Of a DNA stretch of 43,081 nt, positions 12,369-38,139 are shown piece by piece. Origin of the DNA: Chromatiales bacterium (lineage in GTDB: Bacteria; Pseudomonadota; Gammaproteobacteria; Xanthomonadales; SZUA-36); contig JAHEFS010000010.1 in assembly GCA_024640045.1 (NCBI GenBank), positions 1-43,081 on the forward strand. Direction: 5' to 3'. Numbering within the stretch: the first letter of the stretch is position 1; each line of letters starts with the position of its first letter. The notes below the pieces were generated by a model. The model ran no database searches, was not told the DNA's origin, and was given only the letters and a program-made list of their open reading frames with translations. The position numbers and the translations under genes were made by a program.

Positions 12369-13277
<909 letters not shown>

Positions 13278-13301: not shown

Positions 13302-13334
13302 AAAAAAAACCCCGGCGGTCAGAGACCCCGGGGT
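13302..13334 (-). terminator. Rho-independent terminator downstream of polA
   Basis: On the minus strand an 11-bp stem with one bulge forms: ACCCCGG/CCGGGGT outer arms (13328-13334 and 13309-13315) and an inner GGTC/GACC around a 3-base loop. Eight T follow (13302-13309). On the plus strand no T-run follows, so the terminator serves polA or the candidate small RNA, not hemF. Confidence 0.85.
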
Positions 13335-13440
13335 CAAACTAGGATTCGGCAAAAGGGGGGGACTCACCGAACCCGATGGTCGGCCCGTCCAGGGAGATGT
13401 CCGGGCCTCGGCTGAAAGACTCAGCCTGTTAAGTCAGACC
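13302..13440 (-). ncRNA. Candidate small RNA downstream of polA (Spot 42/ErsA position)
   Basis: The 3' flank of polA folds into successive hairpins on the polA strand. Hairpin 1 is GGCTGA/TCAGCC (13426-13410). Hairpin 2 is GGCCCG/CGGGCC (13407-13382). Hairpin 3 is TTCGG/CCGAA (13371-13345) with a 17-base loop holding seven consecutive C. The strong terminator above follows. A -10-like TACTCT lies at 13449-13444, giving a start near 13438 and an RNA of about 135 bases, but the -35 is poor. In E. coli (Spot 42) and P. aeruginosa (ErsA) a small RNA is encoded next to polA. I see no sequence identity to either. It could instead be just a structured polA 3' UTR. Confidence 0.4.
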
Positions 13441-13497
13441 GGTAGAGTACGGAAAAAGTTTCACACGGAAGATAAAAAAATGATGAAAAAACCGTTC

Positions 13498-16194
13498 TCA
13501 GTGAGCGCTGTCCCAGTCCGGGCCGTACCCCGCATCGACCACCAGCGGAACATCCAGGTTCGCGGCACCTGACATTCGCTCACTCACGCCCGCCTGCACC
13601 TCCTCGAGGCGGGCCTCCGGAACCTCCAGCACCAATTCATCGTGCACTTGCATGACCAACTGCGTTTCGGTCTGTTCTGCCTCCAGCCAAGCATCCACGG
13701 TAATCATGGCCCGCTTGATGATGTCAGCCGCCGTTCCCTGCATTGGCGCGTTGATCGCGGCGCGTTCGGCCGCCTGGCGCCGTTGCATATTACTGGCCTT
13801 GATATCGGGCAGGTAAAGCCGGCGGCCGAAGAGGGTTTCGACAAATCCCTGCCCGCTGGCTGTCTCACGCGTTGAATCCATGAAGCTGCGCACACCGGGG
13901 TACCGGGCAAAATACGTGTCCATGTAGGTTTGCGCCTCCGACCTGTCCACATCCAGCTGGCGCGCCAGGCCGAACGCCGACATGCCATACATCAGGCCGA
14001 AATTGATGGCCTTGGCGGCCCTGCGCTGTTGAGAGCTGACCTCGTCATATGGCGTGTCGAAAACCTCGCCCGCCGTGGCGCGATGCACGTCCACGCCTTC
14101 GCGGAAGGCCTTGAGCAGGCCCTTGTCGCCTGAAATGTGCGCCATGATGCGTAATTCGATCTGTGAATAATCGCACGCCAGGATAACCATGCCGGGCGGG
14201 GCGATGAAGGCCTTGCGAATCCGGCGGCCCAGTTCCGATCGGATCGGGATGTTCTGCAGGTTGGGGCCTGACGAGGACAACCGGCCAGTGGCTGCCACGG
14301 CCTGGTGGTACGAGGTGTGCACGCGGCCGGTTTCCGGGTTGATGTCCCCGGGCAGGCGGTCGGTATAGGTCGACTTTAATTTGGACAGTGAGCGGTGTTC
14401 CAGGATTAGCCGCGGTAGTGCGTAGTTGCCGGACAGTTCCTGCAGCACGTCTTCCGCCGTCGAAGGCTGGCCTTTGGGGGTTTTGCGGATGACCGGCAAT
14501 TCCAGCTTTTCGAACAGGATCTGTTGCAACTGTTTGGGGGAGCCGAGGTTAAATGGCTGTCCGGCCTCCCCGTGCGCCTGTTTTTCCAGCCGTGCCATTT
14601 GTGTGGCCATTTCGCGGCTCTGGGCATGCAGGAGGTCCGCGTCGATCAGGACCCCGCGTTGCTCCATTCTCGCCAGGACGGGGACCAGCGGAATTTCAAT
14701 TTCGGTCAGAACGCGGGCCAGGCTGGGGCTGTCTTCCAGCCGCGGCCACAAGTGCTGGTGCAATTGCAACGTGATGTCGGCGTCTTCCGCCGCGTAGTGG
14801 CCCGCATCTTCCAGGCGCACCTGGCTGAAAGAAATCTGCTTGGCACCCTTGCCGGCCACGTCCTCGTAATGGGTCGTCTTCCGCCCCAGGTATTTCAATG
14901 CCAGTGAATCCATGTCATGGCGGCTACCCGTGCTATTGAAGACATAGGATTCCAGCATGGTGTCGAATGCCACGCCGTCCAAAGTGATGCCATAGCGGGA
15001 CAGGACATTCATGTCGTACTTGATGTGCTGACCGATTTTTCCCAACGACGTATCTTCGAGCAGAGGGCCGATGGCTTTGAGGACCCGGTCCAGGTCCAAC
15101 TGCGTCGGTGCGCCGGGATAGTCATGGCCGACCGGAACGTAGGCCGCTTCTCCGGGTTCGATGGCGAAGCTGAGGCCGACCAGTTGTGCCCGCATCGGGT
15201 CGAGAGCCGTGGTTTCCGTGTCGAAGGCAAAGAGTTCCGCGGCCTGGAGGCGCTTGATCCAGCCGTTGAGCTCCGCTTCATCCGTAATCGTGCTGTAGCG
15301 GGTCTCGGTGTGCTCCGGCGGCGCGTCTTCCTGGCCCAGTTCCTTCAGCCAGCTGTTGAACTCGTAGCGTTGCAGAAATGTCCGCAAAGTTTCCTGGTCC
15401 GCCGGTCGCAAGTGCAGTTCGTCGATGGGCAGGTCGATATCGAGGTCAGTCTTGATGGTGACGAGCTCGCGGGACAGCGGCAGGGTGGGTATGGCGTTGC
15501 GCAGGTATTCGCCAATTTTGCCGCCAATTTCATCCGCGTGGGCAATGACTTCATCAAGACTGCCGTATTGTTCCAGCCACTTGGCCGCGGTCTTTGGCCC
15601 ACATTTATCCACACCGGGAATGTTGTCCGACTTGTCACCGGTCAGCGTCAAAAAATCGATGAATCGTTCTGGCGCCACGCCAAACTTCTCCTCCACCCCA
15701 GCGCAGTCCAGGTGAGAATCGGTCATCGTGTTGACCAGCGTCACCCGGCCCGTGACCAGCTGCGCCAGATCCTTGTCGCCGGTGGAGATTACGCAATCCA
15801 TGCCTGCCTTTTCTGCCCGCACCGCCAGTGTGCCGATAACGTCGTCGGCTTCCACGCCTTCGACCTGGACCAATGGCATTCCCAGGTTCCCAACCAGTTC
15901 GTGAATGGGTTCGATCTGCTTGCGCAGATCTGACGGCATGCTGGGGCGGTTGGCCTTGTAATCCGGGTACCGTTCATGCCTGAACGTTGGGCCAGGCGCG
16001 TCGAAGACCACCACGACCTGGTCAGACTCAGCCTCCTTGAGCAGTCGCCGTAACATGTTGGCTACCCCCAACAATGCTCCGGTTGGCTCACCATTCGAGT
16101 TGGTCAGGTTGGGCAGCGCATGGAAGGCCCGATAGAGGTACGATGAACCATCGACCAGGTAGAGGATGTTCTTGGGGTGCGTGTTTGAGGTCAT
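13498..16194 (-). CDS. polA: DNA polymerase I
   Basis: This 898-residue Pol I starts at MTSNTHPKNILYLVDGSSYLYRAF; the longer in-frame ORF upstream is not conserved. The N-terminal 5'-3' exonuclease (about 1-290) is followed by a 3'-5' exonuclease with its acidic motifs intact (FDTETTALD, KYDMNVL, YAAEDADIT). The polymerase motifs are A (ACDYSQIELRIMAH), B (RRAAKAINFGLMYGMSAFG) and C (MQVHDELVLEVPE). It fills gaps and removes RNA primers. It is divergent from the DUF2782 gene, a pairing also seen in Pseudomonas. Confidence 0.98.
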   Translation of the reverse strand: MTSNTHPKNILYLVDGSSYLYRAFHALPNLTNSNGEPTGALLGVANMLRRLLKEAESDQVVVVFDAPGPTFRHERYPDYKANRPSMPSDLRKQIEPIHELVGNLGMPLVQVEGVEADDVIGTLAVRAEKAGMDCVISTGDKDLAQLVTGRVTLVNTMTDSHLDCAGVEEKFGVAPERFIDFLTLTGDKSDNIPGVDKCGPKTAAKWLEQYGSLDEVIAHADEIGGKIGEYLRNAIPTLPLSRELVTIKTDLDIDLPIDELHLRPADQETLRTFLQRYEFNSWLKELGQEDAPPEHTETRYSTITDEAELNGWIKRLQAAELFAFDTETTALDPMRAQLVGLSFAIEPGEAAYVPVGHDYPGAPTQLDLDRVLKAIGPLLEDTSLGKIGQHIKYDMNVLSRYGITLDGVAFDTMLESYVFNSTGSRHDMDSLALKYLGRKTTHYEDVAGKGAKQISFSQVRLEDAGHYAAEDADITLQLHQHLWPRLEDSPSLARVLTEIEIPLVPVLARMEQRGVLIDADLLHAQSREMATQMARLEKQAHGEAGQPFNLGSPKQLQQILFEKLELPVIRKTPKGQPSTAEDVLQELSGNYALPRLILEHRSLSKLKSTYTDRLPGDINPETGRVHTSYHQAVAATGRLSSSGPNLQNIPIRSELGRRIRKAFIAPPGMVILACDYSQIELRIMAHISGDKGLLKAFREGVDVHRATAGEVFDTPYDEVSSQQRRAAKAINFGLMYGMSAFGLARQLDVDRSEAQTYMDTYFARYPGVRSFMDSTRETASGQGFVETLFGRRLYLPDIKASNMQRRQAAERAAINAPMQGTAADIIKRAMITVDAWLEAEQTETQLVMQVHDELVLEVPEARLEEVQAGVSERMSGAANLDVPLVVDAGYGPDWDSAH

Positions 16195-16215
16195 GGATGA
16201 GTGATCGATTTGCGG

Positions 16216-16244
16216 TTTACAGTGTCTAAACGACTGAGCATACT
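16216..16244 (+). promoter_or_regulatory. Probable sigma-70 promoter for the DUF2782/TRAP/trmH unit
   Basis: TTTACA (16216-16221), a 17-base spacer and CATACT (16239-16244) form a good -35/-10 pair in the polA/DUF2782 divergent region. The predicted start is near 16251. That would leave the GGAGGA at 16245-16250 outside the transcript. Confidence 0.45.
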
Positions 16245-16257
16245 GGAGGAGCGCCTC

Positions 16258-16329
16258 ATGATACAGATCATGCAGAGCGCGCGTGTGCTGCGGAACGCTG
16301 GTGCCCCGTTTTGGGGAGGGGAAAAATGA
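16258..16329 (+). CDS. Possible 23-residue leader peptide overlapping the DUF2782 start
   Basis: An ATG at 16258 sits 7 bases after a perfect GGAGGA (16245-16250) and opens a 23-codon frame, MIQIMQSARVLRNAGAPFWG and three more residues. It ends in a TGA overlapping the next ATG as ATGA (16326-16329). This is the typical arrangement for translational coupling to the DUF2782 gene. Its first codons span a palindrome (CATGAT-N4-ATCATG, 16257-16272). A promoter predicted just upstream would start the RNA at about 16251, after the GGAGGA, which argues against normal initiation here. Coding status is uncertain. Confidence 0.3.
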   Translation: MIQIMQSARVLRNAGAPFWGGEK

Positions 16330-16682
16330 ACAGAATGCTGCCAATTGGTATAGCTTTGCTGCTGGCGGCCGTGGCTGCTCCGGCACAGGAAGATTCGGCC
16401 AAGGAAGATCCGGCGGCGCCGCCGGAAATGGCGGAGCCGGCAATCCCACCCAAGGTGCAGGATGAGCAAATCGAACCGTCGGTTAACATCCGCGAGGAAG
16501 AAAACCGCCGAGTTGAGGAATACAGCCTCAACGGCCGGGTTTACATGGTCAAGATCATCCCTGCCAAGGGCAAGCCCTACTACTACCTGGATGAAGATGG
16601 CGACGGCATGCTGGAGTTACAGCCCGGTGATGAAGCCATGAACCCGGTCAGGCCTGCTTACTGGAAGATCAAGGAATGGTAA
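16326..16682 (+). CDS. DUF2782 domain protein, exported
   Basis: This 118-residue protein has a short signal peptide (MNRMLPIGIALLLAAVAAPAQ) and a Pro/Glu-rich linker. A compact C-terminal domain follows with YSLNGRVYMVKIIPAKGKPY, YYLDEDGDG and PAYWKIKEW, typical of DUF2782. It probably resides in the periplasm. The start at 16326 has GGGGAGGGG just upstream; an earlier in-frame start at 16311 would weaken the signal peptide. It is always near polA in related genomes as far as I recall, but its function is unknown. Confidence 0.85.
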   Translation: MNRMLPIGIALLLAAVAAPAQEDSAKEDPAAPPEMAEPAIPPKVQDEQIEPSVNIREEENRRVEEYSLNGRVYMVKIIPAKGKPYYYLDEDGDGMLELQPGDEAMNPVRPAYWKIKEW

Positions 16683-38062: not shown

Positions 38063-38139
38063 GGGCCCTTAGCTCAGCTGGTTAGAGCAGTCGACTCATA
38101 ATCGATTGGTCGAAGGTTCAAGTCCTTCAGGGCCCACCA
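38063..38139 (+). tRNA. ileX: tRNA-Ile2 with CAU anticodon (lysidine type)
   Basis: A complete 77-base cloverleaf includes the encoded CCA. The acceptor stem GGGCCCU pairs with AGGGCCC, the D-arm is AGCUCAGCUGGUUAGAGC and the T-arm contains GGUUCAAGUCC. The anticodon loop reads CUCAUAA, so the anticodon is CAU. The body is close to E. coli ileX (GACUCAUAAUCG, then UUGGUCG) and unlike elongator tRNA-Met (CACUCAUAAUGAUGGGGUC). This tRNA reads AUA after TilS turns C34 into lysidine. E. coli ileX also lies next to rpoD. Confidence 0.93.

Follow-up and report, generated by a model that had tools for sequence, protein, structure and literature searches.

A probable sigma-E-type small RNA gene with C-rich loops beside polA belongs to an old and widespread family

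The hairpins that follow polA, the gene for DNA polymerase I, in this genome raise the question of whether they are the structured end of the polA message or a small RNA gene in its own right, and whether such an RNA has kin in other lineages. The window, by which we mean the whole stretch of 43,081 nucleotides that was analysed, carries polA on the minus strand at 13498–16449 (ORF list; Pfam DNA_pol_A, with 5′–3′ and 3′–5′ exonuclease domains; the true start codon probably lies inside the listed ORF). The closest named match of PolA, 85% identical, is from a Lysobacterales MAG, which suggests that the window comes from a metagenome-assembled genome of the Lysobacterales/Xanthomonadales. At gathering thresholds, Rfam matches the window only at a tRNA gene (38063–38136). 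The polA stop codon lies at 13500–13498, and the RNA begins about 70 bases further on along the same strand; hemF (12369–13277, plus strand; ORF list, Pfam Coprogen_oxidas) is convergent with the small RNA gene, and 25 bases separate its stop from the RNA terminator. Our reading, to which we give a probability of about 0.8, is that this interval holds a stand-alone gene for a trans-acting RNA of about 125 nucleotides, with an RpoE promoter and its own terminator, and that C-rich loops of the RNA lower translation through G-rich ribosome-binding regions.

The RNA (13302–13430, minus strand; about 125–129 nucleotides) was delineated by folding, covariation, a covariance-model family and synteny. 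It consists of hairpin H1 (13410–13426), with a GGCUGA..UCAGCC stem and a variable loop; hairpin H2 (13382–13407), with CUCCC at 13396–13392 in its C-rich apical loop, ACAUCUCCCUGG; hairpin H3 (13342–13374), in whose loop C7 (13361–13355) is followed by U4; and an intrinsic terminator (13302–13333), identified by folding and covariation, with a stem at 13333–13310, a loop, GGUCUCUGACCG, that lacks a C-run, and U8 at 13309–13302. An earlier, sequence-only reading had described three hairpins and a strong terminator after the polA stop, with C7 in the third loop, and minus-strand folding confirms both; the 17 bases that it gave for this loop hold if only eight strong pairs are counted, whereas the loop of the minimum free energy structure has 9 nucleotides. 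The C-rich H2 loop, which had been overlooked, shows some of the strongest conservation in the family. The minimum free energy of 13430–13302 is −62.6 kcal/mol, compared with −47.5 ± 3.5 in dinucleotide shuffles (z = −4.3). For the RNA minus its terminator the values are −41.5 and −30.2 (z = −3.2), and none of 200 shuffles was equally stable. More than a terminator is therefore present.

The search for relatives drew on eighty named polA loci plus genome searches. Five relatives served to build a first covariance model (R1), whose training set contained no sX13, anti-hemB or ErsA sequence. It gave 83 matches at E ≤ 0.01 across 99 loci, most of them directly downstream of polA, and these 83 were used to build a second model (R2). 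At E ≤ 0.01, R2 matches 155 of the 369 sampled genomes of the class, a list whose weak end is unsafe, as Pseudomonadaceae have matches of 20–33 bits at sites other than polA as well. Both models include the window RNA among their training sequences, and its own scores (143.8 and 104.3 bits) are therefore a product of construction and no test by themselves, in contrast to its anatomy and the independent promoter and synteny; the other R2 matches in its genome reach at most 23.3 bits and were treated as background, so second copies there were rejected. Of 60 copies picked from across the class on score and nothing else, 53 have polA or engB within the 1.5-kb flank, and 42 have polA there. Within the family of the window's own genome, the RNA is found at E ≤ 1e-6 in 22 of 39 genomes; the other 17 have no match at that threshold, and the RNA can thus be lost or diverge past the model. 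Three to five copies stand in tandem 3′ of polA at L079:3463-4017, L096:3494-4360, L156:1501-2258 and L173:1165-1909 (the first two are from Salinisphaera), and nearly every arrayed copy has its own sigma-E-type element.

Changes on both sides were seen in 27 of the 28 pairs of the 83-sequence alignment, across all four helices, a count that carries the caveat that the alignment was fitted to the structure. Double changes affect 5 of 5 modelled pairs in H1, 7 of 7 in H2 and 9 of 9 in H3, and 95.2% of cells are paired, against 65.8% when shuffled and at most 48.6% with partners slid. Because of this fitting, two checks were run without the alignment. In the first, 20 diverse sequences were aligned with MAFFT alone, and RNAalifold then recovered H2 as eight pairs, all with double changes; this approach misaligned H1 and H3 and drew a false pairing between the H3 C-run and the terminator, and it was replaced by the iterated covariance models. 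In the second, 144 homologues were folded singly; 137 gave exactly four hairpins, and the mean z was −6.3 (−4.2 without the last 42 bases). The loops are also conserved: of 145 H2 loops, 133 contain UCCC and 92 contain CCUCC, and CCCC is present in 139 of 145 H3 loops. A similar C-rich bias was looked for in the H1 loops of the homologues and none was seen. The comparison of relatives that the sequence-only reading had proposed thus finds conserved, covarying stems beyond the terminator as well as C-rich loops, and these, together with the same placement in relatives, support its suggestion that the polA locus encodes a small RNA with a C-rich loop. The window RNA itself has the four helices, UCCC in the H2 loop, CCCC in the H3 loop, polA adjoining it and, upstream, an in-register promoter of the sigma-E type.

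That promoter bears on whether the hairpins belong to a structured 3′ UTR, which would serve to stabilise or terminate the polA message, or from which the RNA would be cut without a promoter of its own. Such an origin agrees with the position of the RNA, some 70 bases past polA on the same strand, and with its terminator, which would end polA transcripts too. The sigma-E/AlgU-type motif lies at 13434–13462 on the minus strand, with a −35 of GAAACTT at 13462–13456, a spacer of 17 and a −10 of TCTGA at 13438–13434, and predicts an RNA start at about 13430–13426. GAACTT with TCTGA or TCAGA are classic RpoE/AlgU elements; the −35 of the window RNA (AAACTT) is one base off GAACTT, which counts against a sigma-E reading. 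A weak promoter box noted earlier (TACTCT, 13449–13444) falls between the two boxes of the sigma-E-type motif, and it was rejected as a sigma-70 promoter. For each copy of the RNA, the search for a [G/A/C]AAC..-type −35 and a TC..-type −10, with a spacer of 15 to 17, covered the 70 bases before the RNA and its own first 12 bases. The element reaches the threshold in 133 of 152 distinct copies, which share kinship and so are not 152 independent events, compared with 9.9 in dinucleotide shuffles; 3.4% of random windows pass. The spacing is 16 in 108 of the passing copies and 17 in 25, and the distance to the RNA start is identical in most of them. Because the covariance models start downstream of the −10 element, the promoter constitutes an independent test.

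An element in near-fixed register before so many copies speaks against a 3′ UTR, as do several loci in which another gene or hundreds of bases lie between polA and the RNA, tandem copies with an element apiece, copies by engB that have no polA within 1.5 kb, and C-rich loops conserved far beyond the needs of a stabilising hairpin. We consider that explanation quite improbable. Given that a sigma-E-type promoter is likely, there is no call to invoke processing from the polA mRNA, a possibility that the sequence-only reading had raised.

The same small RNA could also depend on another ECF sigma factor, or on a different holoenzyme, instead of RpoE. The genome encodes RpoE (above the curated cut-off), with RseA adjoining it, and the RpoE family model has seven further matches in the genome, which leaves room for this alternative; so does the merely degenerate element that Xanthomonadaceae sX13 genes retain. 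Nevertheless, the motif is of the classic RpoE/AlgU kind, and a similar element (GAACTC-N16-TCAGA) is located 5′ of rpoE itself. Furthermore, ErsA, which has the same element and locus, is sigma22-dependent by experiment (PMC7565897). We regard a sigma factor other than RpoE as unlikely.

A precedent for the proposed function is sX13 (RF02232) of Xanthomonas and other Xanthomonadaceae, a polA-adjacent RNA whose three C-rich loops target mRNAs that carry G-rich motifs where translation starts and which is active without Hfq (PMC3771888). It was reported as exclusive to Xanthomonadaceae, in a paper that leaves RpoE unmentioned and that raised the question of small RNAs at the polA loci of other bacteria (PMC3771888); for many families, the present survey answers that question with yes. 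The window RNA resembles sX13 in its location 3′ of polA, its stems with C-rich apical loops, its terminator and its similar length, and R1, although free of sX13 in training, matches sX13 loci at E values of 1e-6 to 5e-3. The two differ in that sX13 has three C-rich apical loops on three stems, whereas the window RNA has two (H2 and H3) and, unlike sX13, no C-run in its terminator loop, which counts against our reading. The window RNA also carries an additional 5′ hairpin, H1; the corresponding part of sX13 is described as lacking structure. Scored against RF02232, the window RNA reaches 18.5 bits (E = 0.17), compared with a gathering score of 50, and membership at the Rfam threshold was rejected. 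The sX13 genes of Xanthomonadaceae (for example, L136–L140) have a degenerate promoter, ACGAACC-N16-TCATA, in the same register, and the window promoter is a much better sigma-E-type site. Because the sX13 promoter is degenerate but in register, these sequences suggest that sigma-factor use may have changed in the lineage that carries sX13.

Among Rfam families, the window RNA matches anti-hemB (RF02837, Burkholderia) best, at 25.0 bits (E = 5.6e-4) and collinearly over the whole model; here, too, membership at the Rfam threshold was rejected (gathering score, 49.5). The name denotes an antisense position at hemB and is inapplicable to the window RNA, from which hemB is 5.3 kb distant. Anti-hemB is made as ncS04 in Burkholderia cenocepacia biofilms (PMC5688073). 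Two R2-matched members of the family, L152:177-292, which adjoins polA, and L190:1501-1629, which adjoins engB, pass the RF02837 gathering score, which makes RF02837 and RF02232 look like branches of a single family. The window RNA is below all named Rfam thresholds and yet inside one clearly defined larger family.

ErsA is located between polA and engB, contains an unstructured domain that is rich in U, and employs Hfq in its action on anr (PMC8575079). It shares with the window RNA the polA locus and C-rich stem-loops, and motif comparison shows a promoter of the same type, GAACTTT-N16/17-TCAGA, at the same place. R2 matches the ErsA site in 10 of 15 polA loci of the Pseudomonas family, at 20–29 bits, which is no better than scattered matches elsewhere in the same genomes, and RF01719 (ErsA / Pseudomon-1) has no match in the window up to E = 5; the RNA body of ErsA appears to be weakly linked to the family. 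We found no paper that names both ErsA and sX13, in a search that lay mostly outside subscription journals and hence is no proof that the link is new. Spot 42 (spf) is encoded beside polA in Escherichia and Vibrio. Its model (RF00021) has no match in the window, and homology to Spot 42 was rejected for this reason; nor does R2 match at the polA locus of Salinivibrio (L063), where a Spot 42-like sequence is found. Of the two RNAs with which the locus had been compared, ErsA therefore stands, by locus and promoter type, and Spot 42 does not.

The family is thus old and widespread, and what has been named so far are isolated branches only (sX13, anti-hemB and perhaps ErsA). It joins RF02232 and RF02837, possibly also RF01719, and adds to them a conserved promoter of the envelope-stress type. 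A broader proposal is that sX13, anti-hemB, ErsA and the unnamed copies, until now filed as separate lineage-restricted families, descend from one RpoE-driven envelope-stress RNA with anti-Shine–Dalgarno-like loops, whose gene already stood between polA and engB in an early gammaproteobacterial ancestor (the class being taken broadly, with Burkholderiales included); for this, belief and doubt are evenly balanced in our view.

We propose that envelope stress would free RpoE from RseA, that the RpoE holoenzyme would transcribe the RNA of about 125 nucleotides from the promoter just 3′ of polA, and that the transcript would be ended by its own terminator; these steps are based on the promoter motif, its conservation and the case of ErsA. 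The CUCCC of H2 and the C7U4 of H3 may then pair with G-rich ribosome-binding regions of mRNAs, as loop conservation and sX13 indicate, and pairing would reduce translation, as experiments showed for the sX13 loops. The family H2 loop, about ACCUCCCU, resembles the anti-Shine–Dalgarno tail of 16S rRNA, ACCUCCUUA, a likeness that would also suit a decoy whose CCUCC-like loops mimic this tail and affect initiation in general, or an RNA that titrates a protein. Set against such a decoy or sponge is the action of the sX13 loops on individual targets, in which G-rich motifs are required (PMC3771888), and we hold it to be very unlikely. For a regulator that pairs with individual mRNAs, the prediction in dozens of lineages is an RNA next to polA that is made when RpoE is activated and that represses mRNAs whose ribosome-binding sites are G-rich. 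The genome encodes Hfq (above the cut-off), and hfq was considered as a target by analogy with sX13; it was set aside, as its upstream region, AAAAAAGGAG, is without GGGG, and a duplex of about −10 kcal/mol, calculated with no controls, is uninformative.

Some copies depart from the usual arrangement. Two (L006:1463-1597 and L007:1464-1595), with a very similar H3 and terminator, lie 3′ of a Mg-chelatase-like (ComM/YifB-type) gene, with neither polA nor engB within the 1.5 kb examined; a promoter-like GAAACTT is present, with a TCATAT-like −10. At L035:3726-3848 (minus strand), the RNA is on the strand opposite polA, past an inserted EF-hand-like gene, and the orientation can therefore change.
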